Assembly (NCBI RefSeq): GCF_040054535.1
Contig: NC_090796.1
Location: forward strand, 5,941,001 to 6,005,000
Source of the DNA: Antennarius striatus
Taxonomy: Eukaryota; Chordata; Actinopteri; Lophiiformes; Antennariidae
Direction of reading: 5' to 3'
Length of the DNA: 64,000 bases
Below are positions 18,201 to 49,483 of this stretch, piece by piece (within the stretch, counting starts at the first letter, position 1; every line of letters begins with the position of its first letter). The position numbers and the translations under genes were made by a program. The notes under the pieces were generated by a model. That model was given only the letters and a program-made list of their open reading frames with translations. It did not search any database and was not told the DNA's origin.

Positions 18201-21200
18201 CAACTTCAACGAATGGCCTATTTTAAAAAACTTTTCACATACAAGGCGCACTGGATTATAAGGCGCACCATCAAATAATGGCCTATTCTAACAAAAAATT
18301 TCACATATTAGGCGTTTTGGATTATAAGGCTCACCGTTGGTTTTGAGAACCTTAAAGGCTTTTTAGGTGTGCCTAATAGTGCGGAAAATACTGTAATCTG
18401 AATATAGGGCTAAAATAACAAACAGGTTTATCTTTCAGGCTGACATTCGTAACAGTAGTTTTCATTTAATAGTTATGTAAGTGGATTGTGTTTCTGAATC
18501 AGTGATGGCAGTATGACACCTGTTCTGATGTATGCTGCTGTGAAAATTACTCGGAAATTAATGACTCAAAATGCACAACCACAACCACGTTCTTCACGAG
18601 GAAGGCTGAATTTCTGTTTATAGGTTAGCATTGAGGTTTATTAGTGTGAGCAGCATCGTTTCACATCCATCCGTTTGTTTTCTCTGCAGTTAAATCTTAA
18701 AACCAATAGCAACAGTAACCATGACCTGAATGCTTTTAGTAGTAAGCTGTTCTTTACGGTAACCAAGGCTACTCTAGCTGTCAACGTTAGCTGTTGTTTT
18801 TCATCCCATTAGCTTGATGGAGCTGCTTTCATTTTTAAACAGCAATGCTGCATGTGAGAAAACTGTCCCATGTGTGTTCTCCATGTATAACATTCAAGTT
18901 AACAAGCAAATATTTTCTGAGAAATGTTTTGCTGAGCTTCAAATGCTCAGTTTTTTTGACAAAAAAATGTAATTCAGGGGAGACTATTCATCCATCTTGT
19001 AAATTAGACGATCACAATCGTCCATCTACAGCTACTTATCCACCTCTAGCGGGTCAAAGGTCTGCTGGAGCCCATCTCAGCTGGCTGGGTGAGATACAGG
19101 GGACACCACAGATAAAACGCCAGCTCATTACGGAACAACACGGGAGACAAACAAACCCTCATGCTCACACCTGCGGACAATTTTGGTGAAGACCGATTCA
19201 CCTAAGCTGCATGTTTTTGGAGGTAGCCGGATCTTTTTGAAAATGGAACTTTATGTCTTACGGTTACGCCGTCCGTCCACATGACAACGCAGATTTCTGT
19301 GACGAGAACGGAACTTTTCAAAAATGGCAGGTCTGCGTTGTCGTGTGAACGCTGTAATGTAAACTTTTACTACAAGGGGGGAGTCTCCCTGTGGGGAAAA
19401 CCGCTGTGACGTTAGAGTGTGTGACCCGTGTCTACATGTACACACAGAATCAACAGAGTTAAAACCGGCTATTTTCTGACATATAACAGCTCCACATCAA
19501 AGATGCGTTGATAAACATACTTGACAGTTCAATATTTGTTTGTTTCTTTTTTTATGAGTCATGAAGTGTATATATTATTTTTTCATTCATCCACGTTCTT
19601 TGGCAAAGATGCCGACCCCAGGTCTGGGTCAGACCGGAACGCGTTGCCTGCTGGTGGAAGAACTCTCTGATGGTTGTCGTCCTCCAGGAGGAACGGGGTG
19701 AATTTCTACACGTCCCAGTCCTGTCTGTTGTAGTTCTCGAAGCTGTTACGGAGAGGTTCTGGTTATGAACCTGTTGATCAACTGACTGATGCGTTACGTG
19801 TGAACGGAGTTTTTTCTAAAACACTGTTGTGTGGAGGCAAATTTTTTCTATGCGGGGGAAAAGAAAAATCCGTTTTCAAAAGGATCCTTCTACGTGTGAA
19901 CATGGCCCAAGACACAGGAAGAACATATAAATTCCACAGAGGGGAATCGAACCCCAAATGTTCTAGCTGTCAGACAGCAGCGCTACACACTGCACCACCA
20001 CCATCAAGAAACTGTCAAATTTAATGATGCACAGTCTACACGCTGGACTTTTTTTCAACAATTTATAGCTGTGTGCTTCCCTGCCACGTTTCTCTATCTT
20101 GACCTTTGTCTGCAGGACCATCAGGGTGGGGTGGTACTTCTCCAAGCAGCCCTCCAGTAGACAATGGAACATCAGCTTGGGGAAAGCCTAGTGATGCTCC
20201 TACTGGCTGGGGAGACCCTGATGATACTGGGGGAAAGACAGCGGGTTGGGGAAACCCTGCTCCAAACCTCATCAAGTCTGGTTAGTTCTCATTGTTATAC
20301 CTAAACCCTCAGTGGTTGTTGATTTGGAATTACAGTATTTGCCTTTTGATTATCCACGCCATCTTATTTTGCTAAATTGATTGTGTGCGTACTTTATAGT
20401 CCACAAATAAAAATGAATTCCAGATGTGGGCCTTTCCCCTGCAGGCTCAAAGTCTATGCAAGATGACTGGGGGGACAAGGAGGTCTCTGTGACAGCATCA
20501 CGTCACTCAAGCTGGGAAGATGAGGAGGAGGGAGGCGGCATATGGAACAGCACTGGCTCCCAGGGAAGCGGCTCATCCTGGGGACAGGGAAGCAACGGAG
20601 GCTGGGGGCAGAGCACTGCAGGGAAGAAGCCCAGCAACAAGGTGTGTTACTGCTGGGATCATGGGAGAAAAAAAAAAGCATTTAAGAAAGGAAACGGCAC
20701 ATGGCAGCGTTTTGGTCCTGCAGTCGTCACATTAATATTTTCTATTAAAACCCTGCAGAGCATTTCAATAATTTTAATTTGCTTTACAGGGTCCACTGAA
20801 GACGGGTGGAGGAGATTCATGGATGAGCCCCGTCAACAGACAGTTCTCTAACATGGGGCTGATGGTAAGACAAAACAATGTGTCCATTTTTCAAGTCGTT
20901 TTCCTAAACCAGGATGATGATGATGATGATGATGGTGGTGGTGGCCTTCTTCTTGTGGACAGAACGACGATCCCAGTGGCCCAAACATCGACCTGGCCCT
21001 CCAGGAGAAGAAGATGGACATGGAGAAGAGAGGCATGGGCATGAGCGATTACAATGGCGATATGAGGAAGGGGGGGAGAGGAGGGGGTGTGGCGTATCGC
21101 CCACCTATTTCCAAAGAGGCAGCCACTGCGGAGGCTCATTCATTCTATGATAAGGTGATCCTTCTCCACCCACCTGAACTCTCTTGTTGTGTGTTTCTCG

Positions 21201-24200
21201 TGTCTGTTTAACATTTTGTCCTTTCTTACTATTCTTTATCTCCTTATGTGGTTCTACCTCGTCTTCTGGTCTGCCCCACTTCCTTCTGTCTTAACCCCTA
21301 CCTCACCCCCTCACCACCACTCAAAAATTGGTCTTCTATTGGCTGTCGCTGTGACAGACCTTGCCGTTGACCAATCAGGATTGGTGCCTTGGGGAGGAGG
21401 GTCCTTGCTCTCTGTACTCACCACCCACTGTCTACAAGCCCCATCCCCTCTTCAACCACACTATCCCCTTTAGACAAGTAAGATCACGGCTCCCACTGTT
21501 TCTGTCCCACCATCTTGTGCATTAGGTTTTAAAAGTTTGGTTTCTGTGAACAATGAACTTTTAATTGTACCGACAATTTGCCTGTTCCAGTCGTCATGTT
21601 TTTCCTAATGTGCATATTTTTATACACGTGTTTTTCACACACATCAGGTATTTAAGGGACCTTTTTAACATTTTGTTTTCATCTTTGATCTTAGGGCAGT
21701 CACAGTATTTTTGGCAGCGGTGGAGGGATGGCTCAGTCAAGACATCAGCAAACTGTCCCACCCATAAACCAGTCCCCAGGGATACGAGCGCAAGTGCCTC
21801 ATCAGTTCCTGTCTCCTCAGGTACAAATGCTTTCGGTTTTATTCAGTATTACTTTCAGTTCTGTAGATATTTCACACTTCTCAGTGACACAGGAAATGTG
21901 TGGGTGGACTGTGTAGAGGAGATGTTGTTTTTTTTCCCCTCTATTTGCACTACTGAGTAAACTAAAAGTAGTTTATTCAACTTGGAAATGTGTTTCACTT
22001 GTTTCCTTCTCCATTTTTCTTGCTTGTAGTTAAATTTATTATAAATCGTCAGGTATATGCATGCAGCACCAGGCTGTTCACTGACATCTTTGTGAATTCT
22101 CTGAGATGCATTTTACTGATTCTTCATTGAGTGAACTAATATCACATGACCTGCTGACTCTGTGTTTGGTATTGATTAGTTAGTACAATCCCTAGAGGAC
22201 ATGATCGGTCTTTAGAACAACGTGGATCACATTTCCTGCCTTAATTTGGAAGAAGAGAAAGTGAGAAACACGTATTTTCTGCCAATTTAATTAATCTCAT
22301 TCTTCGTTCGTGTACCGGATTAAGTCAGTTGTTAACACCAGCTAATTAGAACATGAAGAAGAATCAATACTAAGTGGAAGAAGCAGAAAGCTTATATGGT
22401 TGCTAGGGGTTACTGCACCAAAATTTCTATGGTAACAGGTGTGCCTTACTGCTGTTGTGTCTGTCTCCAGGTGCCAGGTTCCATGCTGAAGCAGGTGCCC
22501 CCTCCCAGCGGGAGCGTGGGAGGAGTGGCAGGACTAGGGGGAGGTGTTTTCCCTCCACAGCTGTCCCCCCAACATATTGCCATGCTCAGCAGCATCTACC
22601 CACCTCACGTTCAATTTCAACTGGTGAGAGGCAGCAGTAAACATGAAGCACTGCAGGTTTTCATCCTCATTCAGTAAATTATCAGTTTGGAAGTCACAAA
22701 AATTTAGAAAGAGAAAATTGTAAACACCAACTGTTTTGAACATTGTACAGGTGAACAGGTGATCGTATAGAAATATAATATGTATAACTAATACTCTATA
22801 GATAATGAAATGTAGAAATATATTTTTGTATGAAAGGTATTTGTAAGGTTTATGCAAACCTTTTTTGGCCACAGCTCTAAAAGTTTGGTTATTTATTTTC
22901 CTGACAAAACAATGAAGTCTTTAAAAACTGCATTTATTGTGGAGTATCTACCATACACACTAGAAGTTACAACACATAAAAGAAGTGATTTGGTTTATTA
23001 GCATTACGTGGAAGTAGTGGTCTCCATAACGTGAGAGGTTTTTCTTGCTGTCTTGTTGGAACCCACTTCCTTTTTGAGCGTATTGGGGGAAAAAACGTTT
23101 GTGCCACCACCACAGAAAGTCTCCTTAAATATCAATGTACAGTGGTACCTCTACTTACAAAATTAATTGGTTTCCTGAAGAAATTTCGTAAGTAGAGACG
23201 CAAATGCCCTAATCCATTCCAAGCCCCAAAAAATTCTGACATAAATGTTTTATAAAGCATAAAAATGCATCAAAACATGTAACAAATACATGTTACAATT
23301 AGATTATTACACAATAAATGAGAGTTGTGCATAACCTAAAAAACAAAGAATAGAGTAAAGAATAATAATGACAGTCATTTACCTTTTAACTGCTGTCCTC
23401 ATTGTTTTTTGCCCTCTTTGGTTCATGCGCTCCTACCTCACCATGCCGGACAATGGAGTGAATTCCAGTCCTCCTTTTGAACTTCTCCAACCACCCACGC
23501 GATACCTTAAACTCCTTAAACTTCCTTTTGTTTTAATAACGTGGCGATTGTAGATACACTACAGCCACATTCTTTTGCGAGATCAACCAAACGTATCCAT
23601 TTTTCATGCTTTTCTATCATCTCTTGCTTTGTTTTTTCAGACAAACTCTTTTCTTCGTCTTTTCTTTTCCTCTTTTCTCCGTCACTTTCTTGGGGTCCAT
23701 AGCAAATACTCTAAAAGTTAATATATTTACGTAAAACTATGAGAAAACATCATGGGTCGAGAGCCAAATGACGAGGACCCTGCATTAACACCGATCTAGC
23801 TCCACACAGAGGTCCCTCTTAGTCAATGGGATGCCAGGAAGATACTAGGTAATAGCCAGTGGCAGAGCAGCAATGATAATTGTTGCATTCAGGAACCTGT
23901 GGGAGCTGCAAGTATCAGCCCATACTGTATTTTTACCTTACATAAGTTGAAATTTTTTTCGTAACTACAGGTAATATTTTCCTGCTGAGAAGTTTCGTAA
24001 GAAGATGTACCACTGTATTAGCTATTTTTCATCATGCACCATTCATGTGAACACACAACTGTTCGGGGTGTATCTTGTCACAGCAGCTTTGCGCTGAGAT
24101 TTGGACCGTTTTCCCACCAAACTTCACTCTTTGAAATGAATCACAGATCACATGCAGCTTTATCAGGGGAGGGCAGTCTGAACAAGGATCAGCCATTGTC

Positions 24201-27200: not shown

Positions 27201-29217
27201 AAGAAGAATCCAGTTTCATTTTATTTATTTTGGAAGGGCAGCCAAGGTTTGATGTGGTCATGTTTACACAGAAAAGGAATGCTCCCACTCAGTGTGTTTG
27301 CTTGCTCTTCCTGTTCTGCAGGCTCAACTTGGAGTGATGGCAGCTCTCGGGAAAGCTGCTGGTTGGTGCTCAGTAACCTCACACCACAGGTACGGAAAAG
27401 ATATACAAATGAAGCGACTGAAAGCACTGGGGAGTAAAGTGGAATATGTTTTCTAAATGCAATATCAACTGTCATAGTTGATGTATATTTGTTTTGATGT
27501 ATTCATAAATATCCAGACCTCTGACTTTTATGCTTGATGTATTAATACAGCTTTGAATTTCTTGTTCACCAGATAAGATATATTGTCTAACTTACATGTT
27601 CCTGCAGATTGATGGCTCCACTCTGAGAACGATCTGCATGCAGCATGGACCTCTGCTGACCTTTCACCTTGGCCTGACCCAGGGAACTGCTCTGATTCGC
27701 TACAGCTCCAAACAGGAGGCGGCCAAGGCGCAGAGTGCACTCCACATGTAAGACTCAGGCTGTTGTTAACATGATGTCTGTGTCACCGTCCGTTCTGTTT
27801 GGTCAACATGTAACTGAAACCAGTGGACGTTTAGCTTAGCTTCCCAGAAAAGATAAGAAATGGGTCAGTGACGGCTCATCGGGCTCCGTCAACGAGCCAA
27901 AACATCTGCCTGTCAGAAACTAACACAGCTGGAGAATTAATCAAAACTCATTTATAAAATGTATTTTCATAAACAGCTTTTTACATCCGTACTTGTATTT
28001 TGTGGTAGCTGTCGTAGCTCAGACCATTTGCTAGGCAACAGGACAGACTCCAGGGAGTACCCCTAGTAAACCCTCACCAGTGATTTTGCTGTGGTTTCAC
28101 TGATAGACAAGTTTTACTGTTATTGTTGAGCTTAATTTGACAGGTTACTCTTTCAAAATACACTGATAGTGGAACTAGCTGCACATAAAGTTTTAATTTG
28201 AACAAAAAATGTTATTTTATTAATAACAGTTACAGTATTTTCGGCACCATAAGGCGCACCTCTAATGAACGGCCCATTTTAACACTGTTTTCATATATAA
28301 GGTGCACTGGATTATAAAGTGCGATAGATTATAAAGCGCACCTTCAATAAATGGCCTATTTCTTAAAAATTTTCCGTATATAAGGTGCACTGGATTATAA
28401 GGCGCATTGTAGGTTTTTTGAGAAAATTAAAGGCTTTTAGGTGCGCCTTGTAGTGTGGAAAATACTGTAATATGAAGATGCCAGGCGAGCCCCCTGCATC
28501 TTCATAAGGGTGACAGGACACAGTTTGTATTACTTTTTTTTTCAGACAACATGATTTACAGTGACCTCTGTGGAAAATATTGTTGATTTTGACATGGATG
28601 TGAAAAAAATTATTTATTGGCTTTTCTTTTGTACCAGGTGTGTTTTGGGTAACACCACCATCTTGGCGGAGTTTGTAAGCGAGGAGGATGTGACTCGCTA
28701 TATCGCACATTCCCAAGCAGGAGGGGCAGGAAGCGGCGGAACCACAGCCAGCTCTGCAGGCTCTGGGCCCACAGCAGCCTCTGCTGTGGGGGCCAACAAC
28801 GCTAACGGAGGTAGCTGTGAGAGAGCTGGAGCAGCAAGCAGTGGTGGTGGGGGGGGAAGAGGAGGAGGAGATGGAGGTTCCACCGCTGGAGGAGTGGGAA
28901 GTGGTGCGAATGCTAATTCCAACTCTGGATGGCAGAGTCTGGACAGCACAGGCAGCTCATCGGACCAGTCCGTCATCCAGGGGCCCGGGCTCGGCATCTT
29001 CACCCAGTGGAGCAACAACGGCGCCAATGTGGGTGGGGCTGGAGGAGTGGAGGCTGGACGGCATGGCCTTTGGGGGGGGATGGGTTCAATGAGCGGTGCT
29101 GGGTACCCCAGCAGTAGCCTCTGGGGTACCCCGGCACTGGAGGAACGTCACCAGATGGGCAGCCCAGCTTCACTGCTCCCAGGAGACCTGCTAGGTGGGG
29201 GGGCCGACTCCATCTGA
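12263..29217 (+). CDS. tnrc6b: TNRC6B (GW182-family microRNA silencing scaffold), 21 coding exons
   Basis: Cytoplasmic scaffold that links Argonaute to PABP and the CCR4-NOT and PAN2-PAN3 deadenylases. Coding exons: 12263-12319, 13333-13354, 14382-14813, 14924-17848, 20116-20280, 20445-20641, 20790-20864, 20963-21154, 21358-21477, 21695-21820, 22471-22623, 24444-24599, 24720-24918, 25035-25202, 25392-25538, 25743-25886, 26040-26132, 26844-27050, 27322-27389, 27608-27747, 28638-29217. Sum 6366 nt, 2121 aa; human TNRC6B is about 1830 aa. In-frame stops just before 12263 fix the start (MEDKKRKK). Residues about 171-1145, one giant exon, are Gly/Ser-rich with more than 30 Trp in GW/WG contexts, including the Argonaute hook near 670-700 ([12 protein letters not shown]). 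Then a Q-rich block (about 1489-1540, ending LLQNQRK), a PAM2 motif ([14 protein letters not shown], about 1708-1722), an RRM (about 1873-1943) and a C-terminal GW segment ending GGADSI. TNRC6B rather than A or C is chosen from [26 protein letters not shown] and synteny. Confidence 0.95.
13333..13354 (+). CDS. tnrc6b: tnrc6b 22-nt microexon
   Basis: Bounded by TTTTAG and GTAAGC. It encodes VAEQKNK plus one base and joins in frame to exon 14382 (giving KVPDSTKP), matching the conserved VTEQKTKVPEVTK region of human TNRC6B. At 22 nt it is not a multiple of three, so skipping it would shift the frame. Confidence 0.85.
18159..18393. mobile_element. Palindromic MITE, copy 2 (tnrc6b intron 4)
   Basis: Starts CAGAATTTTCCGCAC, ends GTGCGGAAAATACTG, flanked by TA on each side. 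Inside are repeated 'aaggcgcac' motifs with a spacing of roughly 40-50 bp. Same family as 9154-9300 and 28233-28467. Confidence 0.8.
18985..20005 (-). repeat. SINE/LINE-type repeat, split by an insertion
   Basis: Read on the minus strand, the right part (20005-19905) is a tRNA-like head (complement of 'gcaccaccacc', B-box-like 'GGTTCGATTCC'). The left part (19229-18985) is the continuing body, with wording typical of teleost repeats ('ggagcccatctcagctggctgggtgagatacaggg', read on plus). The body is interrupted at 19230-19904 by another element. Confidence 0.6.
19230..19904. mobile_element. Non-autonomous palindromic DNA element nested in a SINE-type repeat
   Basis: The left end (GGATCTTTTTGAAAATGG) and right end (CCGTTTTCAAAAGGATCC) are near-perfect inverted repeats. 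A second inner inverted pair lies at about 19275-19355 (ACATGACAACGCAGA against TCTGCGTTGTCGTGTG). No transposase frame was seen. The family is not assigned. Confidence 0.6.
23140..24015. mobile_element. Non-autonomous mariner-like element, about 876 bp
   Basis: Begins CAGTGGTACCTCTACTTAC and ends with the inverted GATGTACCACTG. TA flanks it on each side (23138-23139, 24016-24017), the expected target duplication for Tc1/mariner. Subterminal 'ttcgtaag' motifs occur near both ends. No intact transposase frame. Sits in tnrc6b intron 11. Confidence 0.75.
24468..24545 (+). repeat. tnrc6b: CAG/CAA repeat encoding a glutamine tract
   Basis: Mixed CAG and CAA codons in tnrc6b exon 12 encode about 25 consecutive or near-consecutive Gln. 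The CAA interruptions reduce slippage at the DNA level while keeping the protein tract. Confidence 0.9.
28233..28467. mobile_element. Palindromic MITE, copy 3 (last tnrc6b intron)
   Basis: Starts CAGTATTTTCGGCACC, ends GTGTGGAAAATACTG, flanked by TA. Internal 'ataaggtgcactggattata' motifs recur in tandem. Same family as 9154-9300 and 18159-18393. Confidence 0.8.
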
Positions 29218-31025
29218 GGGGCCGATTTCAAAACACACTTTACATCCATGTTATAATACGTATGTCACACACTGCAATCATTTACATGCAGAGATGACAT
29301 GAATCATAGCTACACTGGTTACCAAACATACAGGCTACATGCAGTACATGCACACATTATTTTTTACACGTACACATTTATCCATTCAACGTAAAAATGA
29401 AGACGACAGTGAAACTTGAACCCGGGAAAAAGGTGAAATCCATTCAGCTCTTACAACTCAACTGGATAGCTCTTTTTACTCCAAACCCCCGTCATCTGCA
29501 CTCGGAGATCCGATCACTCAGGCATGCACTGTAGACAGGCTCAGCCGGAGTCGTACAGAGTTGTGAGTTTAGCTATTGCTGTTTTTAGTGTGCCACAGTT
29601 AGTTTGTTTTTTTCTTTTGTATTACTATTTAATGGTCGAATCTCAAAATTCAGACTTGCAGACTCTGAGCCCTTGCAAACCTGGCTGGTATACTTCCGAG
29701 TTCTCACGTTTGGAAGCTTGGTAGTGTGGAGGGATCTGGACTTTGTAGGGAAAGGGACGATCAGCGACGTTTGAGGTCTGGAAAAGAAGAGCATTTTTTG
29801 GTAGGTACTGACAACCTCTATCACCATGGGACCCAGGGTAAAAAAAAAAAGAGAAATCTAAACAAACAACATTAGCCAAACTTGCACTATATGCCTCTGG
29901 GTTTGTTGTTGACACATGCCCCAGAAATCCCTCCATTTTTTTTACTTTTTTTTGTTTTGTTTGGAAACGGCTACAACACAACTACACAGACCTTACAGGA
30001 CGACTAAATGTTACAGCAGCAGTGGCCTTGGCTCGCACCCGACGGCCACCCACCCGCCATGTCAGCAGCAGAAGCATCACCTACGCATCAGTTACACACT
30101 GCTCTTATATTTGACAAGCAAAATTGTAACTCCTTGTTGATGTATGTTGGTTGTTTCTGTTTTTAAAAGAAAAGAAATGCGTGACACTTTGTGGAAATCC
30201 ATAGATGTCTTTTTGTTTTTGCCCTTCAAACACTGACCTCGCTATTGTATTTTTTTCTTACTCGAGAAATTAAGTTGGTTATTATATATTATCATAACGT
30301 AAATGATGACTATGATCACTTATTTACTCGCTGTACAAGGTGCCCTCCTGCCTGCCTGTGTGAGCATGAAAGGAGAGATAATGACCGAATGGTGGAGGAT
30401 GAGATGAAGATGATGATGATGATGTTGGGAGTGTGTGTTATGCTATAATGTTGAATGTGTCTTTTTTTTTTTTGTATCTGAGAGATTCATGAGAAACATG
30501 TCTGTGTGTGTGTGTGTGTTTGTTTTTGAACACTTATTTGCTCCAGTCAGGAAAGTGAATAGATGTTGATCTGACAGAAGGTGTGTGTCTGTGTGTGTGT
30601 GTGTGCTTGACGATCTGGATATTGTGATAGCTAAAATGTTCAAAAACGTTGGCACTATTGCATATGTCTCTTAAGTTGTGTTTTTAGCACCATGTTGTTT
30701 GTGTTTTGTTTTCTGTCGATTGCAATAAGAGAATATTTTTGTTTTTAAGAAGAAACAACCAACTGAAGGCATTTCTCTTTAAGATGCCAAATCCTACCAT
30801 ACCAAGCTGAGCTGGAACAGTGTTTTACAGACACGTTAAAGACATTACCTGTTATATTTTACTGTTTGATTTTAATTTCTTATTTTTCAATTTAAATTAA
30901 GTTGGTCTTTATTATCAGTCCCGTTCAGGATGTTTTTGTTGTTTCTTTCAGATGTTACAAAAAGGAGAGGAATTTAATTTAAAGCAGAAAAGAACAAGAT
31001 AATAAAGGTTGAGTTAAAGTCTGCA
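29218..31025 (+). other. tnrc6b: tnrc6b 3' UTR with poly(A) signal
   Basis: About 1.8 kb after the TGA at 29215-29217 up to a clear AATAAA at 31001-31006. There is no open frame with protein character. It includes a segment that is duplicated elsewhere in the window (29795-30554). Confidence 0.7.
29795..30554 (+). repeat. Inverted duplication, copy 1 (within tnrc6b 3' UTR)
   Basis: Nearly identical, in reverse orientation, to 42575-43342. The match starts around 'ttggtaggtactgac' and ends around 'gctccagtcaggaa'. About 130 bp (30154-30285) match without a difference. Elsewhere there are scattered substitutions and small length changes in simple repeats. This copy is probably the parent because it lies in the natural 3' UTR of tnrc6b. 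Confidence 0.93.
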
Positions 31026-32100
31026 GTGGTTTGTCCTTCATCTGTTACCGGGTCATCGCTAAACATCCTGATCCTACTGACGTCAGCAGGACTGTAGCAT
31101 TGTGTTCCTTTACAGCAAATCCTTCCAAATACTATTTACCATAATACAAAATGTATACAAATATGATTTTGTTTTGATTGCAACTGAAATACACAATAAT
31201 TGTTCATTTTAAAGTGATTCCAACGTTAACTGGACATATATTTCCTTAGTTAGAATTTTCTAGTTATTTTAACTTGATATGAAGGTTTCCTCTGGTGTCC
31301 AGCTGAAAAAACAATAAGGATCACTCACATCAGTTGGTCTGTTAGTTGTTCAAACTTAAAAAGTTTTTTTTTTTTTTTTAAAAAAGGGGGAGCTATTTGA
31401 AAAAAAAAATTAATTGAATAAAGCAGTACATGAACGACATTGTATTAGCAATTTCCTTGGAGTCTGTTAATAGACGCAACAACAAACATTTAAATACTTT
31501 CATTGATTAGTCAGTAAAGTGTTTACTGTATACCTGAAGGTAACGTGAACGCGTCCTTCATTCCGTCACGTACCTCATCCACGCTGTTTTGGCTACAGCT
31601 CGGGCTTCTGTCCTGTGTGTTTGTTTTGTGTGTGTCCCCAAACACGTCTAATTACAGTGATGCGGTTTGGTTTGTCTTGTGGGAGTTCCTCTTTGAAGGG
31701 AAGGACTCCTGCCCCGATGACTTCTGGGTGTCGGGACGAATCCTATTTATAAACAAGGTTTGACATTTCCGACGCGACTCGAACGCGGCTGACGTGGGAA
31801 CCAGGTAAACCTCCACCTGACGCTGAACGCGGCTGCGGTTTTTACGCTTTTTTCAACAATTAGACTTCAGCATGTAAAGGTAAAAGCAATAGTTTTTGGG
31901 GTTTTTATTGTATTATAAATTGCTGTAAACTGAACACAAAAATGTAAATTTTAGCAGCTTTAAATAAGCTTCTGTCAAAAATGTCGGTCAAATTCAGGTC
32001 GAATTGGTAATTTTGGAAGAAATTAAAACCAGGAGGGGAAGAAAGTGTGTAAGTGTTAACACCCGGGGTTATAGCTGCACTGTTCGGAACAAGGACGCTG
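31026..32100. other. Intergenic between tnrc6b and csnk1e
   Basis: AT-rich with a T-run followed by an A-run at 31365-31385 and an A-run near 31400. No exon seen. Confidence 0.45.
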
Positions 32101-32533
32101 TTTAAATATGTTTTGTCTTCATCTTTATGTGAGAGCGGCTGGTGGCTCCATTCATGCCCACGGACGAGCAGCAGCGTCTTTAAGACAATCCGGGCATCTC
32201 TGCGTGTCCGTGGATGACATCATTGATATTGTCAATGGTGTAAACCGAGAGGAGACTGGGTGGGAGTGTGTGAGGAGGGGTAGAGCAGCCACAGAGGTGA
32301 AGGAGAAGCATCACTCTGGTTTCGGTGTATTTAAAAAGAAAGAAAGAAAGAAAAAACAATTATCCCGACAGTGTGGGGATTTTCACACCTCGGGGCCGGC
32401 GTGGATATTTTTTGCTGGGAGTCTTTGTTCGGGTCCGAGGTTATGATCCGTCCAAAGCCGCGTCGGTGCGTCGCTGTCCGGGGTCCTGAGTGAGACGGAG
32501 CCAGCGGGCTGCCACGGAGCCTGACATAACCCG
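32101..32533 (+). promoter_or_regulatory. csnk1e: csnk1e promoter and non-coding exon 1
   Basis: CpG-rich from about 32380 to 32533, ending with donor CCCG|GTGAGG. The likely splice partner is the acceptor at 33686, just before the start codon exon. A CRE-like ATGACATCAT is present near 32213-32222. The transcription start is not resolvable. Confidence 0.5.
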
Positions 32534-32707
32534 GTGAGGAAGAGGAGGAGGGGGTGGAGGTGGGGGTGTATGTTCTCCGGTCAGGGGGTCTGATCGTGTC
32601 CGTGAGGCGGCTTTTGGGTCGTGGAGCGTTCAGAGGTCCTACCTGTGTTTGGAGGGTGCGGTTAGGGGAATAATCCACACATTTTATGGTCAGTGAGGAA
32701 TGAACAG

Positions 32708-32708
<1 letters not shown>

Positions 32709-32746
<38 letters not shown>
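32709..32746. repeat. (GTT)n microsatellite
   Basis: About 12 uninterrupted trinucleotide units in csnk1e intron 1. Confidence 0.95.
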
Positions 32747-33708
32747 ATTCATCACCATTTCATCACGTGGTCATCTGCATGAAATGATTATCTGATTTGT
32801 GATTTTGGGCTCCTTTTTGCAGCATTTGTGTGTCTCAGTTTTGTAACCTGGCAGCCCTTCGAGGCTCAAGGTTTATGCAGCAGAGGCGTTCCTCTGCCTG
32901 CTGCTGCCTGCACAGGGCTGTATGTAGGTCTCCATTGCAGAGGAGCCTACATAAATGAACCCAGTCAGCGTTTAGTGCAATGCAAACCTGCAAACTGAAA
33001 TTTCATTCTATGCTGAAACGGCCCTCAGCGGGCTCCTGCTTCTCGGCCCCTATGTCATGGCTGCTTAGACGTGTAGAAAAACATGAGTCATTTCATCAGG
33101 GGACCCCAGTTAGATCCGGGGAGTTCATGCAGATTTATTATACACATGACCAGACTCCCTTGAAGTGCTTTGGGAAGAGTGTGTGAGATGCTAATCCAGC
33201 CCCCTACCTCCCCCACCCCATCCTCTTCCTCCTGCTGCTCTGAATAAATCATGTTATACAACTACACGCTCTGTTCTTCTTTGCTCTCATCTTTTTCCCT
33301 GTGCACTTTATAAACACTTCATTGGCTACAAACCAGGATTTATTATCACGTCCTCTGGAGGTGTAAAAAGCTCTGACTCAACCAAACACGGCTGCTTAGA
33401 GCAGGGAGGTATCTTTAGATCTTATTTATTCAACATCTTTTGCTTCCACAGTGGGTTTAGTCACATGAAGTCACTTCATAACCTGGAAGGCAGCAGCGTC
33501 GTCAGGCTGCATTATGTCACCGTGGGGATTCAGGAATTTGCACGTTTCATTTGCTTTCTCACCTCTCTTGTCAGTGAAGTGTACACTTATACACTTGGGA
33601 TTCACGCCTGACCTTTATTTCTGATCATCGGTGATTGAGGATGGCTTCATGTGTGTGTTTGTTTCTGTGTGTCCATCCTCTTTCAGTGAGCTGAAAAACT
33701 CTGGAGCC

Positions 33709-36700
33709 ATGGAGCTGAGGGTGGGGAACAAGTATCGCCTCGGGAGGAAGATTGGAAGCGGGTCGTTTGGAGATATTTACCTCGGTGAGGATTTGAACCT
33801 TCCCATCCCAATCCTGCTCCCTATCGTCCGGGCAGATATTCCTGTTTTTGAGAATATCACTTTGGAGTTTCTGTCCTCACGACTGACACGGTGAAAATTC
33901 TCCTGTCAGGTTCCAACATCGCTACAGGAGAGGAAGTTGCAATCAAACTGGAATGTGTGAAGACCAAACATCCACAGCTCCACATTGAGAGCAAATTCTA
34001 CAAGATGATGCAAGGGGGAGGTGAGACATGGGGGGAGGAAGGGGGACCGTGAAGGAAGGGGTTTTTGAAATGACTAATTTTGTATTTTATATTAACAAAT
34101 GATATCTAAATCTTATTTCACGGCTCAACAGAATAGACTTTTTAGTAGATCCATAAATATGTGAAATAATGAAAAAGAAGAAATTTAGGATAAGTTGGCT
34201 GAAAATTAAAGCTGATATAAAGTACTGTATGTGAATGAAAATTAAATACATATAATACAGCGTTCCAGGGCTGTTCTTGGGATGCTCGTGTCATTTTGCA
34301 TCTTAGTTGTATAATAGAATACAGACTGTGTTTGCCTTTGGCTGATGGTCCTTTCAGTTTCAGTTTTGGGTTAAGATATGGTCAGTGTACGTAAATTAAA
34401 TGAGACAGGTGTACAAATATTTATACTAAAAATATTTTGACTGTTTACATCATATGTGATTCAAATACTAACATCTTAGTTGAATTAATAATCCAATGGC
34501 CTTAAAGAGCAATTACAAAACTATTCATCACGCCAACTATTAGATGTTGCTTTATTGTAAATATATAAACAGTTAAGATCTCCAACATGACCTTAAACAA
34601 CAATACAGATAGCGAAATGTCAAATACCGCAAGTCTTTAGATAAAATATACACTTTGATTAAAATCTGTGTGGTAAATTACTCAAAACAGTTCACAGGAC
34701 CCATTCAGGGGTGTCAAACTCATTTTTATTGAGCATAATGATTGTCCTCCAAGGGGCAGATGTAACTAATGAATCTAACTAAATGTAGGTCAATGTAATG
34801 TAAAATAAATGTAACTACTCCTAAACATTAACTAACTCTGAATTTATAACTTATTCAAGTTACAAACATTACAGTTGCACAGAAAAAAATATGTTAGCTT
34901 GTTTCTCTGTTATAAAATTTTAATTTTTCAGGTTATGAAACCCACAAAAATCCATCAATGAAGGACTAAACTATCAAACTAAATAAAGAAAAATAACATA
35001 AAACACAAATTAGGACATTAACTTTGCTCAAAATGTTTTTGTCACATTTAAAATGGGCTTGATTACTGAATTGTGGGAAATGTAGCTTCAGGTTAAAGCA
35101 CGCTTTTGACCTATTTGTTTTCAGACACTCCGGCCTTTTATGCCCTCGAGGGCCACATAAAATAATGTGGCGGGCCACATCTGACCCCCGAGCCTTGAGT
35201 TTGAAACATGTGCATTAAGTGATGATGGATAAGTTGTTGAAACATTTAGTTTAAATTAATGAATAAATTGTTGAAAATACAGTTCCACATTCTGTTCTGT
35301 AACCTCTTGTTTCGTCCTGTGCCAACAGTGGGGATCCCGTCCATTAAATGGTGCGGCGCAGAAGGCGACTATAACGTCATGGTGATGGAGCTGCTGGGTC
35401 CCAGTCTGGAGGATCTGTTCAACTTCTGCTCCCGCAAATTCAGCCTGAAAACGGTTCTGCTGCTGGCCGACCAGATGGTGAGATGGGCCGACTCCGTCCA
35501 AACCGTAAAACACAGTCAGAGTCTCCTCTGACGTCTAAAGCCAGGGTTCGACACTGAGTCGCCTTAGCAACCAATTACATCAAAAAAGGATCATTTGAAA
35601 TTGGAGAGTAATTCTGAAGCTCTTGTCTCAGCTCAAGGTGAAGTTTAACCTGTGACTATCTGGCCAAGCAGCCTCTCAGTGAAGGTCTGTCTCAATGAAG
35701 GATGTGGCAGCTCTTCTCCCCCAGGTGGGGGGTCAGCCTGTGGCTCCTTTATGAGCCTCTCTAATCCCCCTTATATCATTCTTTGGTCCTTCTGCCACAT
35801 TTGTTCTTTTCAGCACATTTTTTCTTGACCACTCTGACCTCTGACCTTTTTCCTCAATCCTCTCCTCTCCTCTCATTTTAACTTTCCCATAACACTGCAT
35901 AAAATGAACTCTATATATCTGCAGACAAGCTGACAGGATTATTGATCATTATCAATGACTCAGCTCTTCTTTTACTGGGTGATGAGACTTGTGACCTTTA
36001 AAAGTCGCCCTCTGTGACTGTTGGAACAACTCTAGTAATCATGACCAGGAGGGGTCATTCATGATCTGAAAAGAACTAACAGTTGAAGCTCACATCCAGT
36101 CGGTACACTCATTAATCTGGACCTCTGATGAAAAACTTTTTTAGATTTTCAAACAACGGATCGTCAGATTTTACAGCTTTATGAGCGACACAGAAAAGAT
36201 CAATCTCCCAGCAAATAGATGCTTTCAAGGATCCAACCCTGTCAATATATTCAGTATATAAAATAAACCTGCTACTTCATTGCTTTAGTTTTGTAACTGT
36301 AGTTTGTTTAGAATCTATTTTTGGTAAGGACACAGTGATATTTAAGATTTTATAGCTGATGATTGACGATAATCCTTTATAAGCAACATCTAAATATACA
36401 TCATATACTGTACCTATACATCTACCTTATCAATCTGGTACCTGCATGCCTTTTTTCTTTGATAGTTAAATCTATATAACTCATTCATTGAATGCCTTTT
36501 GGTGGCCAACCCTCAAACTGTGTTTTTCTGAAGATGTACTACTTTCCTAATTTGACAGAAGGTCAGTGTACTTGTCACACTGCTGTGAATACCGCTGTAC
36601 ACACTTCTACAATATCATCTGTGTCTCTGAAGGGATCTGTCTAATTTATGAGTAAACAACCAGGATGACGTGATCTAGGTTGTGACCGAAAAAAGCTTCA

Positions 36701-39237
36701 GACTGTTCTGACCTTGGTTTTGAACATGTTCACTAGACAAGAAGTGTTTTTGGAGCTTCACCGGTTATCATGTCACCCTGTCCTGCTTTATTTTTACTGT
36801 CTGTCTTATGTAACTGTCTGATTTTATGAAAGCGCACTTTTTAAATGCTGGAGGACACTTAAACTAAATTGTCACTCATGCATTACATGACTTGAAACAA
36901 GCTGGCGGTGTCCTGTCCTGTTTGAACCTGAAAATCGATAAACACTCTGACAAATTCCATTTATTACTGGACTTATTCACCTCTGTGAACTCCTGCTTCT
37001 TGTCTCTGTGCTCCAGATCAGTCGTATTGAATACATCCATTCCAAGAACTTCATCCACAGAGACGTGAAGCCCGACAACTTCCTGATGGGGCTGGGCAAG
37101 AAGGGCAACTTGGTCTACATTATCGACTTTGGCCTGGCCAAGAAATACCGTGATGCCAGAACGCACCAACACATCCCCTACCGTGAGAATAAAAACCTCA
37201 CCGGCACCGCCCGCTACGCCTCCATCAACACCCACCTAGGCATTGGTAAGCCAGCCTCCACATCTGTGTGACCGTTGTGACAACCCAACTGTGTTTTATG
37301 TGATTTCACTGCAGGAGATGCTTATCGATTAGTGATTATTGATCAAGGCTGGATTCTTGGAACTGCAGCCTGTTTTGTTGTTTTTTCCCATTTTTGTTCA
37401 GCGTCTTCTCCAGACTCACAACTTTTTTCCATTCCACAATCTCTTCTCTTCACTCCGTCCTTTTTTCTTTCTTTCACAGAGCAGTCGAGGCGGGATGACC
37501 TGGAGTCTCTGGGTTACGTCCTCATGTACTTCAACCTGGGCTCTCTGCCCTGGCAGGGCCTGAAAGCTGCCACCAAGAGGCAGAAGTACGAACGCATCAG
37601 TGAGAAGAAAATGTCGACCCCAATTGAGGTGCTTTGCAAAGGCTACCCATGTGAGTATGACCCAAAAAAAAAAAGATGAGAATATTTCAGTCAAATGTTC
37701 TTACTTAAAAAATTAATCACTTTTATTTTCCTCCAGCCGAATTCTCTACATACCTGAATTTGTGTCGTTCGCTGCGTTTCGATGACAAACCAGACTACTC
37801 GTATCTGAGGCAGCTCTTTAGGAACCTTTTCCACAGACAGGGGTTCTCCTATGACTACGTGTTCGACTGGAACATGCTGAAGTTTGTGAGTAACTCATCT
37901 CCAATCATGACAATCATCAGATCTGTGACAGACTTGTTTTTGTAAATCAGTTCCGGATTTACCCACATCTGAATTCTTCCTCCGTCTCAGGGCGCCAGCA
38001 GGACCACGGAGGATGGAGAACGAGAGAGAAGGGAGGGAAAGGAGGGCGAGGAGCGAGCAGGAGGAGGCCAGAGAGGAGCTGGAGGCCGGGCCTTAGCGTC
38101 TGGTCCGAACCCTTCAGCGGCCAACAGGGTCAGAAACGAGGCAGACGCCGCTCCATCAAACCCCGCCACGCGTGGGGTCCAGCAGTCAGGTCAGGACGCT
38201 GTCGGTGTTTCTGGAGTTTTAGAATTAAACTGTGAGGAAGAGTTGGAGCAGCGTTAAAAAGACTTTGTCGTCACGTCTCTGCAGGTAACCGCTCACCTCA
38301 GGCGGGGAGAGCAGAGCGAGCTGAGCGGGAGAGGAAGGTGGCCATGAGGCTCCATCGGGGGGCGCCTGTCAACGTCTCCTCTTCTGATCTCAACGCGCGT
38401 CTGGACCAATCACGCATCACAGCCACGCAGGTAGGCGTGGTTACGGAGAGGAGTGTTGATGCACGTTATTTTGTTCAACCAAGAATAATATCTTGTTCCC
38501 ATGAAATGAAGAATTTTGTCTTTCCTGATGTTCAGACACTCTAGTTAGCTCCTTCTATTTATTCCAGACTGATAAATGTCTTTTCTTTTTTTTTTTTCCC
38601 AAACAAAACATAAAAACAATAACGAAACAAAATAAGGGGTGTTATACAGTTAATAGTAACAACAGAATAGCAGTAGAAAAAAATAAATATACATTAAACA
38701 AAGGAAGGGTATTTCTGGGCTATGTCTTTTCCAGTCTGTCCAAAATTCTTCAAATTTAGTCTTTTGAATTTAATCCTTGCTACAGGTTATGTCTTATCAT
38801 TGATGGGAGCAAGTTAGTAATAAGCTGTTAGCATTTAGCTGAAGGATGCCTGGACCTTTGTTTTTTTTTGACACTCATGTTGAGACAGAACACATTTTTT
38901 GAGCTGAGGCAAATCTAACATAAGATGCTCAAAATTCCAACCACAATCATGTGGTGAGATGCTTTCACTCATCTCATCACATGAGACAATATGGTTAAAT
39001 TTGTGTAACTTGATAATTCACAATTACCTCAAATTAACTTTTGTTGTAAGTATTACTTCAGGCAATGACTTCAATACTACTTTCAAACTCCGAGAGGAAA
39101 GCTCCTGCAAAGCTCTTGGAAGAGCTGAAAAGTGGGAGTGAGTTCTTGAGGTTTCTGTCTTCTCTTTTTGATCTGATCAAGCTCGTCTTCCTCTCCTCTC
39201 TCAGGTCAGCGTGCCGTTTGAACACCTGGCAAAGTGA
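33709..39237 (+). CDS. csnk1e: Casein kinase I epsilon, 9 coding exons
   Basis: Ser/Thr kinase of the CK1 delta/epsilon group. It phosphorylates PERIOD clock proteins and acts in Wnt signalling through Dishevelled. Exons: 33709-33784, 33910-34020, 35329-35477, 37017-37245, 37480-37650, 37737-37885, 37991-38189, 38285-38430, 39205-39237; 1263 nt, 420 aa (human 416). The protein starts [16 protein letters not shown]. Visible motifs are the glycine loop (IGSGSFGD), the ATP lysine in VAIKLE (K38), HRDVKPDNF (D128), the DFG motif and the CK1-specific SIN segment (ARYASINTH). The kinase domain, residues 9-277, is almost identical to human. The Arg/Gly-rich tail (about 295-420) is divergent but ends in [10 protein letters not shown], like the epsilon C-terminus. 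Delta is less likely because the next gene is tmem184b, as in the human CSNK1E locus. Confidence 0.96.
34706..35212. mobile_element. Degraded hAT-type non-autonomous element
   Basis: Starts CAGGGGTGTCAAACTCATTT and ends with 'ggccacatctgacccccgag...gagtttgaaacatg', the imperfect inverted counterpart. This terminal wording is characteristic of a common vertebrate hAT family. No clear 8-bp target duplication survives. Lies in the intron between csnk1e coding exons 2 and 3. Confidence 0.65.
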
Positions 39238-41070
39238 GGTACTTCAGGCTGATCTGCAGGACAGAGGCAGGTATGGACGTGTCGCTCAGACAGGCTCTGG
39301 TTTCAATGAAACCTGCATCTTTTGTCCTTGCTGTCCTTGGACCCCACAGGTCTCGAATTAAAAAAATAAATGCTTGTTATTTAGCTAAGACATGATATTA
39401 TGCATTAATATCCAGACATTAATTACAATTTAAATAAAACATTTTCAATAAAAGAAAGGAAAGGAGGTAAGTATTCTACGACTTGTCTAATGTGTCAATG
39501 CAGAAGTGTGCAACAATCATGGGTGTAAACGAATTATTTTTGTAAACTTGTATATTTCTTGGAAGTGTATGGTGATTTCTGATGTGTGTCGACTCATGAT
39601 GAGATTTGTTGGCTTCACCACAATTACTTCAAAAAGTGACATTTCTCCTTCCTCTGTTTCATGTGATTCAGCGGCTGCAGGGTATCAACTACTTTTCAAA
39701 TGGATGAATGAAAACATGAGTGAGTGGAGGAAAACAAGGGCATGAGGGAGAGCTGTGGGCCCTCTGGAGGGGGATGGAGGCCGTCCGTGTGTCTGTCAGT
39801 ATGCTGTGTGAACACTGGTGATCAGGAAGCGCCTGAGGAAACACTGAGGTGAAGGACGTCAGTGGGACGAACTGACTCTGAAGTGGAACTGGATGCTTCA
39901 CGGTGTGAGCGGGTGAAACAGCACACAGGTCTCTACCCCTATATTTTTTTGCCTATTTTCAATTTAGAGGCTCAACTTGCAAAAAAGAAAAAAAAAAGAA
40001 AAAGAAAATTCAAAAAATAAAAGTGCACAAAATGCACAAAAATTCCATTGTTCTGGGGTTTATACCTATGATAAAATAAAGGAAAATATCACCTATCAGC
40101 CTGCAAATATTTGAGAGCTACATCTGCTGCTTACAGTGTTCTTGATTATAAATATGTAAACATCTATGAGACAAAGACAAATATGTTTCAGGCCTATAAT
40201 AAGCATACATCTGAGTATATAGACAGGAGAATGCTTGAAAACTAACCAAGGAGGGAATCAGAGGCAAGGCATGAATGTGATTTTTGGAACAAAGCTGCTT
40301 TTTGTCAGTAATTGTCAGTTTTATTCTGTATTTTATTGTCTTAAATGTTTGTTTCACCCACGGCTTTGCTTTAAAGAGTCCGAGGAAAGGATTGGCAACA
40401 GAGGGTAAATTAATTTTTGGTGACTTTCTTCTAACAGAGAACACATGCCACCTCAAACTTCCTCTTCTTCAGCACAGTCATTACTTATTTACTCACAAGA
40501 GACTGACAGGGACATAAACTCATTGATTGTGAATATAGAAGGGGAGGAGGACCACTATGAGGGGGAGCCATGAGTATTGTGGGATATGATAAAGCCTTAG
40601 TCCAGCTTGTAACTCCAGGCATGACAGACTTAAGAAAGTTTAAAGATCTTGGTGATGGACAAGTCTGGTGTGCATTTGTATTTTTGTCCATTCTTTTTTT
40701 TTTTTAACTTTACGAGACATGTAAAATGTGTAGATAACTTTTACCAGAATGTGACAGATTGTTTGAGGGTGGGGGCCGGAGAGAACTGTTTAGTCTCTGA
40801 CATCCCCAGGCCAAAAATTGTAACTGAAATATTTAGAAATAACCTTTAGAGTCTGCCAAGAATGTGTGTTTTAGTTTCCACTGAGGCAAGCAATGACAGA
40901 AAGGTTTTTGTCAATATTTCAGGGAGGGTTTTTACCCGGGCCCGTTGGGGGTGGACATGGGTCACTGATGGGACTGATCAACTTGATGCCATGTACATTC
41001 CAATGCTTCAACTTTATTACTATAATTTTTGTGTATATTTTCTGAATCAATAAAAATATACACAACAAGG
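39238..41070 (+). other. csnk1e: csnk1e 3' UTR with several poly(A) signals
   Basis: AATAAA occurs at 39433-39438, 39447-39452, near 40016 and at 41049-41054. The last would give a 3' UTR of about 1.8 kb. Which site is used cannot be told from sequence. Confidence 0.5.
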
Positions 41071-41179
41071 TCTTCTGCTTCATTTCATAGGAAAATCGTT
41101 GATATTCATGTTTATTATTGTATACATAATGACAATCTGCTGTAGTGGACCCCAATGAGAAAACGCCTAAAGGAGAGTT

Positions 41180-41229
41180 GGATTTCTCTGAAAGAAACAC
41201 TGGTGGATTTCTCTGAAAGAAACACTGGA
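41180..41229. repeat. Two tandem 25-bp units
   Basis: A 25-bp unit beginning 'ggatttctctgaaagaaaca' is repeated directly with one difference at the last base. Confidence 0.9.
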
Positions 41230-41589
41230 TTTACAAATAAGTATTTTGTCGTGACGTAGTCCGTATAAATGTATAATAGTTCATCAACTTCTGCTATGTC
41301 AGTTGTTCTGTTTTGCCTTTGCCTCAAAATTATTGGTGTGCAACTATCAGCACCTGAATGTTTTTAGTCCTAGGCTGAAATAGCTCTACAGCATGACGAA
41401 CATGTCTTAACAACAGATCCTGAATGTCATTGGACAAAAAAATAAAAACGTTGTACTTTTTTGGAAAATCGATGAATAAAAAACACTCTAAATGTGTTGA
41501 TGACAATACGACACTCACATTCTCACCGTCATCAACACCCACAGCCCAATTACTGCCAGACCAGAATAGATTCGCGCATGCTCAGTTGT

Positions 41590-42038
41590 TAGGAATCAAA
41601 CCTCGCCTTCTTCCGGGATGTTAAAGGTAGTCTGTTTGTGATTGGCTGAACAAATCCGCCCTCGCGGTTGTGGGCGGTGCTTATATGATCTGCGGTTAAT
41701 CCGACGGGGATTGTTTGAAGTCCGTGGAGTGAAGTAAGAAGATTGGGAAGGAAGGAAGGAGGATCCCGTTATAGCTTTATAAACACTTTCTTTAGACAAG
41801 GTTAATATTCAGACAGGAGTAGAAAACTTATTTCATAAAGCTTGTTTACTATGAGCAGTAAACTTTAGGGGCTGGTGTTTGGGGGAGACGCGGAGGGTGA
41901 CGGGCTGTGTGTTGTTCAACATGGATGTCCGGGGAGCAACGGTGCGACTCTGAGGAGGAATTAAGGTCGTTTCTTGGTTATTTCTGGTCCTGAGTTCGTT
42001 GAGGAGGATTTATTTTAAAGCAGCAACTTATTTTCCAG
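41590..42038 (+). promoter_or_regulatory. tmem184b: tmem184b promoter and non-coding exon 1
   Basis: An inverted CCAAT box (ATTGGCT, 41641-41647), CpG-rich sequence to about 41700 and again near 41890-41940, and a strong donor TTCCAG|GTGAGT after 42038. The donor pairs naturally with the acceptor at 44015 directly before the start codon. The leader appears to be a few hundred bp. Confidence 0.6.
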
Positions 42039-42574
42039 GTGAGTTACGCCTCTTGAACAGGTTGGGAATACTTTTACTATAGAACACCTTTTGTTTGATT
42101 AATGTGTCACATTCAAGATAAGGTGCATTATCTGTTAGCGACTCGCTGCTGTTTACGGTTCATTTGTTTTCACTGTAACGTTGGGTTTTAATTAAAAATC
42201 AAAATGTGAAAGGAAAAAAAACACAAAGTTTTGTTTTAGAACCACTTTCTGACAAATTTTCACCCCCCCCTTTTTTTTTTTTTTGTTTTCTGCTGTATTA
42301 ACCAGTATGCTAATCGGGCTACTGATGAGACATTTCAGACCCTCCGTCTGCCCCCGTCACCCCTGTCCATCTGCTGGGGTCCTGAAGCCTGTCTGTGATG
42401 TATGACTCTCTGTCTGTGGCTGAGGGACACATTGACCTTTGAAATGAAGCACACAGATGTCCCTTTGCTCCAGATCATCATTTCACTGCCTGTGCTTTTT
42501 TGTTTGTGTTTGGCTGCTGATGCCTTCACCGATTTGTTGGCCTGTGGATCTGATCCTCATCAGATCCCTCTCTC

Positions 42575-43342
42575 TTCCTGACTGGAGCAAATAAGTGTTC
42601 AAAAACAAACACACACACACACACACAGACATGTTTCTCATGAATCTCTTGGATACAAAAAAAAAAAAAGAAGACACGTTCAACATTATAGCATAACACA
42701 CTCCCTACATCATCATCATCTTCATCTCATCCTCCACCATTCGGTCATTATCTCTCCTTTCATGCTCACACAGGCAGGCAGGAGGGCACCTTGTATAGCA
42801 AGTAAATAAGTGATCATAGTTATCATTTACGTTATGATAATACATAATAACCAACTTAATTTCTCGAGTAAGAAAAAAATACAATAGCGAGGTCAGTGTT
42901 TGAAGGGCAAAAACAAAAAGACATCTATGGATTTCCACAAAGTGTCACGCATTTCTTTTCTTTTAAAAACAGAAATAAACAACCAACATACATCAACAAG
43001 GAGTTACAATTTTGCTTGTCAAATATAAGAGCAGTGTGTAAATGATGCATAGGTGATGCTGCTGCTGCTGCTGACATGGCGGGTGGGTGGCCGTCGGGTG
43101 CGAGCCAAGGCCACCTTTGCTGTAACATTTAGTCATCCTGTAAGGTCTGTGTAGTTGTGTTGTAGCCGTTTCCAAACAAACAAAAAAAGTAAAAAAAAAT
43201 GGAGGGATTTCTGGGGCATGTGTCAACAACAAACCCAGAGGCATATAGTGTAAGTTTGGCTAATGTTGTTTGTTTAGATTTCTCTTTTTTTTTTTTTACC
43301 CCGGGTCCCATGGTGATAGAGGTTGTCAGTACCTACCAAAGA
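42575..43342 (-). repeat. Inverted duplication, copy 2 (tmem184b intron 1)
   Basis: The minus strand reproduces the tnrc6b 3' UTR segment 29795-30554 with only scattered changes. The matching outer edges are plain sequence, with no terminal repeats or target duplications visible and no poly(A) tail at the end. A DNA-level duplication therefore fits better than a retrocopy. It lies wholly between tmem184b exon 1 and exon 2. Confidence 0.93.
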
Positions 43343-44015
43343 ATAACCACAGAAATGGGTTAAACGTCTCATCTTATTAGGGAACAATCATTCTGATTGG
43401 TGACAGTTCTGTTAGGATCAGGGAACTTCTTTCTAGTTAAGAAGTGATGTCCCAATTCATTACTATTTTTTTTTAGTAATGAATCCACTATGATTCCTGG
43501 TGTGTTAAGTTATGCAGGAAGTAATAATTTAATGGGAACATGTTATTGATATTAGTGTATGTCCCCCTCCCACAAAAAGTCTGATCCTAGAATTGCCCCC
43601 AGAAGCTTTGATATACCAGAATGCCTTGCTGCTCTGACACGTCACCTTATATAAATTCATGCGTTGTGCCATCACACTGACACGCTCCAACTCAGACCAC
43701 ACCTGAATCCTGATGCTGGGGCTTGTTCTGTGGCAGCAGTCAAGTGGAATTGTGGGAGGTGGAGGAACTAACAGAGATCTTTTTTCTCCCCCTAACACAG
43801 ATACCATTGAGAAATGTTTATCTACTTTCCTATCACCTGTTACACATTACATTGATGACACAGTAATCAATATTCCAGGTTGATGATTACTGATAGAAAT
43901 AAATGATTATGCTTGGACTTTTGTGTCAGAGCGTATTCTCTGTTTGAGCTTCAGTGGATTCCGTGTGTCCACACACAGTCTAACAATCTAACGTCCTTCT
44001 TGGTGTCTCTTCTAG

Positions 44016-49483
<5,468 letters not shown>

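Follow-up and report, generated by a model that had tools for sequence, protein, structure and literature searches.

The DNA analyzed here is a stretch of 64,000 nucleotides from Antennarius striatus (the window; contig NC_090796.1 of assembly GCF_040054535.1, forward-strand positions 5,941,001 to 6,005,000) that carries the genes tnrc6b, csnk1e and tmem184b, all on the + strand, together with two inverted copies of a unit of ~765 bp. Copy 1 probably lies inside the 3' untranslated region (UTR) of tnrc6b, and copy 2 is antisense in the probable first intron of tmem184b. A first-pass annotation had described the two copies as an inverted duplication bracketing csnk1e and had proposed that they are substrates for recombination that would flip the interval between them.

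A paralogous block, tnrc6b-csnk1e-tmem184b, is found at C16:7217001-7256000 with the same gene order and orientation as the window, a comparison made within one assembly and with a paralogous block rather than an outgroup. This C16 block, which probably arose by whole-genome duplication, contains the tnrc6b C-terminus, seven of eight csnk1e exon peptides and all six tmem184b peptides on one strand. Three of the csnk1e exon peptides are 100% identical in C16, and the short last csnk1e exon was unmatched. In the window, an open frame at 28555..29217 (+) includes what we take to be the C-terminus and last coding exon of tnrc6b, with the stop codon at 29215-29217; this frame has no Pfam match, and its C16 paralogue terminates almost identically. 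Conservation differs between genes in the two blocks, with csnk1e exons up to 100% conserved while the last tnrc6b exon reaches only 55-61% identity to its C16 paralogue. The tnrc6b 3' UTR is predicted to span 29218..31020 (+), its end placed just past an AATAAA poly(A) signal at 31001..31006 (+) that is also present at the corresponding site of the C16 paralogue. Positions 30574-31007 are 59% identical to the sequence downstream of the C16 tnrc6b paralogue and both alignments finish in AATAAAG, so the 3' UTR probably reaches ~31020, and copy 1, which spans 578-1,337 nt beyond the stop codon, would be internal to it.

Downstream of copy 1, the csnk1e coding region runs from an ATG at 33709 to 39237 (33709..39237, +) and presumably includes the short last exon. 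Next comes a stretch at 41600..42038 (+; left end approximate) that probably holds the tmem184b promoter and a non-coding exon 1; here the observed/expected CpG ratio is 0.87 across 41501-42000 compared to a window median of 0.44 and a CAG|GTGAGT donor falls at 42038/42039. This stretch had no significant match in the C16 block; only 41012-41107, farther upstream, matched. The putative intron 1 of tmem184b extends over 42039..44015 (+; GTGAGT to TTCTAG) and hosts copy 2, and the first coding exon, directly after TTCTAG at 44016..44243 (+), has 62% amino-acid identity to C16. Given this CpG-rich probable exon 1 with its donor, and with copy 2 in the probable intron 1, the arms appear to bracket csnk1e plus the 5' end of tmem184b. 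The earlier description was thus right to place csnk1e between the arms but gave the interval incompletely, since the probable tmem184b promoter and exon 1, which it had not recognized, are enclosed as well. Two 25 bp units in perfect tandem (41179-41228) sit just upstream of the probable tmem184b promoter. Pfam matched three of nine window peptides (kinase, Solute_trans_a and bZIP_Maf), and the other six gave none at a threshold of 0.001, so that a domain match backs only some of the gene names. Rfam at gathering thresholds returned zero matches in the window.

When the window was compared to itself with BLASTN, the top non-self match paired 29793-30553 (+; arm 1, copy 1) with 43344-42575 (-; arm 2, copy 2) at 94.85% identity (777 columns, 17 mismatches, 12 gap openings, E=0.0). 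The positions first reported for the two copies, 29795-30554 and 42575-43342, were therefore correct to within 2 bp. Global realignment of the arms gave 752 ungapped columns containing 17 substitutions (14 transitions and 3 transversions) and 11 gap events, for a Kimura two-parameter distance of 0.023. The longest exact run is 132 bp, matching the stretch of about 130 bp noted previously, and the arms are separated by 12.02 kb, in line with the ~12 kb given before. The first-pass annotation had held that an identity far below 90% would speak against a duplication, and alignment of the arms put it at 94.9%. The inverted pair is real and beyond chance. With substitution rates typical of fish, a divergence of 2.3% would place the duplication on the order of a few million years ago, making it fairly recent. 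The arms, at <1 kb, are shorter than the usual size limit for segmental duplications.

The differences between the arms showed no significant clustering along their length (P 0.11 for the longest run and P 0.08 for spacing variance). Gene conversion between the arms was set aside on these values, as substitution spacing gave no clear sign of conversion tracts. CpG losses, judged by eye from the substitution list, were about equal in copy 1 and copy 2 and give no direction. One 4-base indel created an AATAAA at 42974 on the tmem184b strand of copy 2 that is absent from copy 1, a possible intronic poly(A) signal.

The ends of the unit were next compared to those expected of an inserted RNA copy or transposon. 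Both copies end in CAGTCAGGAA and neither has an added poly(A), consistent with the earlier statement that the second copy is untailed. Neither copy contains AATAAA or ATTAAA on the tnrc6b-sense strand, and the unit stops ~450 bp before the AATAAA at 31001 that is common to the C16 paralogue, so it does not end at the poly(A) site, again as first described. No target-site duplication was found above chance, the best candidates being an offset repeat of 5 bp at copy 1 and, no farther than 12 bp from the ends, one of 4 bp at copy 2. Direct repeats of at least 5 bp turned up in 178 of 400 random placements. One junction shares a few bases. A tailed processed retrocopy of the long interspersed nuclear element (LINE) type was ruled out, since the unit does not end at the poly(A) site and has neither a poly(A) tail nor a target-site duplication.

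We then searched the species' own genome (548,383,777 bases in 42 contigs, with the window in an 18.29 Mb contig) for further copies, with all counts taken as lower bounds. The duplicated unit had two matches, both in the window (two candidates, both scored), compared to at least 42 genome-wide for a control transposon taken from the window (~23137-24000; 40 of 2,273 candidates scored). At the sensitivity of this search the unit is low-copy and the arms do not behave as a transposon. Their size and inverted arrangement would be compatible with a solo long terminal repeat (LTR) or a miniature inverted-repeat transposable element (MITE), but the multiple dispersed copies expected of such an element were not found and no target-site duplication at the arms rose above chance, making it extremely improbable that both arms are transposable element copies. 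A single 22-base pattern searched in viral contigs gave zero matches.

The same search showed that the flanks of the arms are essentially single-copy, as three stretches had one match each and the fourth had one full match plus four short ones (33-54 bp). An assembly artefact, in which one arm would be a misplaced haplotype or chimera, is difficult to reconcile with copies that differ by 17 substitutions and 11 indels and that each sit between different flanks within the 18.29 Mb contig, and we consider this explanation highly improbable.

Several other repeats were observed during these searches. The control element at 23137-24000, in the tnrc6b region, begins CAGTGGTACCTCTACTTAC and is probably a non-autonomous DNA transposon; a relative is located between csnk1e and tmem184b in the C16 block (C16:7240717-7241362). 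A spliced tnrc6b retrocopy on C16, suspected from matches of 23137-23352 and 23643-24000, was dropped because sequence and genome search identified these matches as the dispersed element. A further family with a tandem unit of ~66 bp (beginning AAGGCGCACTGGATTATAAGGCGC) occurs at 18177-18402, 28246-28476 and, inverted, at 9150-9302, with copies ~79-86% alike. Across 264 kb of contig C21 that include the window (74 bases are N), there were two inverted pairs of at least 500 bp and at least 90% identity within 30 kb. The second, at 5801312-5801908 / 5828318-5828920 and outside the window, is 94% identical over 603 bp with 26 kb between copies, and overlaps by 114 bp a repeat that has another copy 44 kb off.

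We favor, with a probability of roughly 0.8, a single recent and local duplicative templated insertion at the DNA level, probably from tnrc6b into tmem184b. The DNA-level origin proposed in the first annotation agrees with a copy that has no tail, no target-site duplication and no transposon-like copy number. Under this model, a central segment of the tnrc6b 3' UTR, ~765 bp long, would have been copied and inserted in inverted orientation into tmem184b intron 1, at a point 12.0 kb downstream of the source and past csnk1e. The likeliest route would be a template switch during repair or replication, or the patching of a double-strand break with DNA, after which the copies would have diverged by ~2.3% through ordinary substitutions and short-repeat slippage. 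Inverted copy-number changes arising through aberrant replication have been described (PMC10766186, PMC10766183, PMC8421209). We infer both the direction and the mechanism of the duplication, and no function is needed to explain a copy that may well be neutral.

Comparison to the C16 block suggests that tnrc6b was the source and tmem184b the target, a direction that we hold with moderate confidence. When copy 1 was aligned to the proximal C16 tnrc6b 3' UTR, the best local match (30095-30248, score 28) deviated by 62-76 nt from the diagonal that the distal 3' UTR match predicts. Among controls, 1 of 500 dinucleotide shuffles and 5 of 115 windows score as high. Copy 2 aligns to this C16 site as well, with a score of 24, which 17 of 500 shuffles and 12 of 115 windows reach. 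Nothing was found for copy 2 in the C16 tmem184b upstream/intron region (on the two strands its score was equalled by 75 and 57 of 200 controls) or for the tmem184b intron flanks in the C16 tmem184b region (121 and 83 of 200 controls reached the score). That C16 tmem184b region contained no detectable copy of the unit, though it does not align to the window intron. Base composition was also compared: the T-over-A skew of copy 1 (0.096) falls between those of its flanks (0.003 and 0.147), while copy 2, read on the tmem184b strand, has a skew (-0.089) of the opposite sign to that of the remaining intron (0.159).

A number of results weigh against this account. In a larger control of 1,984 stretches from both strands, 99 reach a score of 28, such that ~5% of controls equal copy 1 on score alone, and the four whose start additionally lies no more than 100 nt from the expected diagonal were counted under a tolerance chosen after the match had been seen. 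The match also depends on scoring, as copy 1 was equalled by 14 of 500 shuffles and 9 of 115 windows with the scheme 2,-3,-5,-2, and by 282 of 500 shuffles and 29 of 115 windows with 5,-4,-10,-2. By BLASTN, neither arm matches the C16 block at E 1e-4. An absence of matches in the genome search does not prove rarity, and the few bases that the junctions share leave template switching a candidate mechanism. Finally, the unit is wholly within one inferred exon, which would also be expected if a tnrc6b mRNA fragment had been reverse-transcribed into tmem184b intron 1 as an RNA-templated patch with no tail or target-site duplication.

Insertions of that kind have been proposed for class 2 templated sequence insertion polymorphisms (TSIPs), which lack target-site duplications and poly(A) and whose experimental counterparts were lowered by reverse-transcriptase inhibitors (PMC5110952, in its available text). 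The tnrc6b/tmem184b copy resembles this class in its probable templated origin, its presumably retained donor and the absence of target-site duplication and poly(A). However, the class 2 insertions described there come from distant regions, whereas this copy is local, inverted and known from one assembly. Splicing cannot discriminate an RNA from a DNA template here because the unit contains no intron. Mobile cDNA would be expected anywhere in the 548 Mb, and the copy lies only 12 kb from its source; an insertion drawn from the whole genome would rarely land so near, which favors a DNA-level event and leaves an RNA template unlikely.

The remaining explanations involve inversion of the interval between the arms. 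Inverted duplicates at both ends of an interval are the geometry described for staggered-break inversions in Drosophila subobscura (PMC5080602, available text). Applied here, the model would have the overhangs filled in, so that the break region was doubled and the inverted csnk1e interval gained a copy on either side. It predicts a flipped interval, but csnk1e shares its strand with tnrc6b and tmem184b both here and in the C16 block, and the probable tmem184b exon 1 inside the interval is already oriented to splice to exon 2. As the interval is not inverted relative to C16, the likeness to a staggered-break scar is limited to the inverted duplicates themselves, and this origin is very unlikely. 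The C16 block itself had no inverted self-match at E 1e-5. On human chromosome 22, a span of ~120 kb holds MAFF, TMEM184B and CSNK1E, for which the available text of PMC12626838 gives coordinates and no strands.

The first-pass annotation had proposed that recombination between the arms would flip the csnk1e interval. Taken as a process at work in the present population, this would invert the 12 kb repeatedly. Inverted arms of ~765 bp at 95% identity are conceivable recombination substrates, and that part of the proposal stands. In humans, inverted repeats mediate inversions that arise recurrently (PMC3961182), and in herring three of four inversions have inverted duplications on their flanks (PMC11499932), both as given in the available texts. 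The pair shares with these inverted low-copy repeats, which act through non-allelic homologous recombination (NAHR), an inverted intrachromosomal arrangement, ~95% identity and a flanked gene. It differs in that the arms are <1 kb and no inversion is seen. The repeats in those texts are longer, with one human case involving 7 kb repeats at 94% that include a 782 bp stretch at 99.9% (PMC3961182) and the herring repeats, of 85-99% identity, given as 3 and 8 kb in a legend and as 8-60 kb in the main text (PMC11499932), compared to a longest exact run of 132 bp here. Order and orientation are the same in the window and in C16, so no net flip is visible, and the substitutions lack the significant clustering that gene conversion would be expected to leave. 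A flip would also cut tmem184b off from its probable promoter and exon 1 and swap the distal 3' UTR and poly(A) site of tnrc6b. The claim that the arms flip csnk1e is unsupported, and we give recurrent inversion very little credence. Equally improbable is a broader form in which a recurrent 12 kb inversion toggles csnk1e and costs tmem184b its exon 1 and tnrc6b its distal 3' UTR, or, as an alternative, regulation of tnrc6b by antisense tnrc6b-UTR RNA transcribed from tmem184b intron 1.

No published description of the tnrc6b/tmem184b inverted pair was found in the literature searched. Our analysis indicates that the pair is a genuine small duplication of an ordinary kind, and nothing in it points to inversion of the gene between the copies. 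This serves as a caution that such an inverted pair need not imply that an inversion happened or is likely. Were related fish to confirm it, the pair would provide a clean, datable case of a short local inverted duplication that placed 3' UTR sequence in the intron of a neighboring gene.

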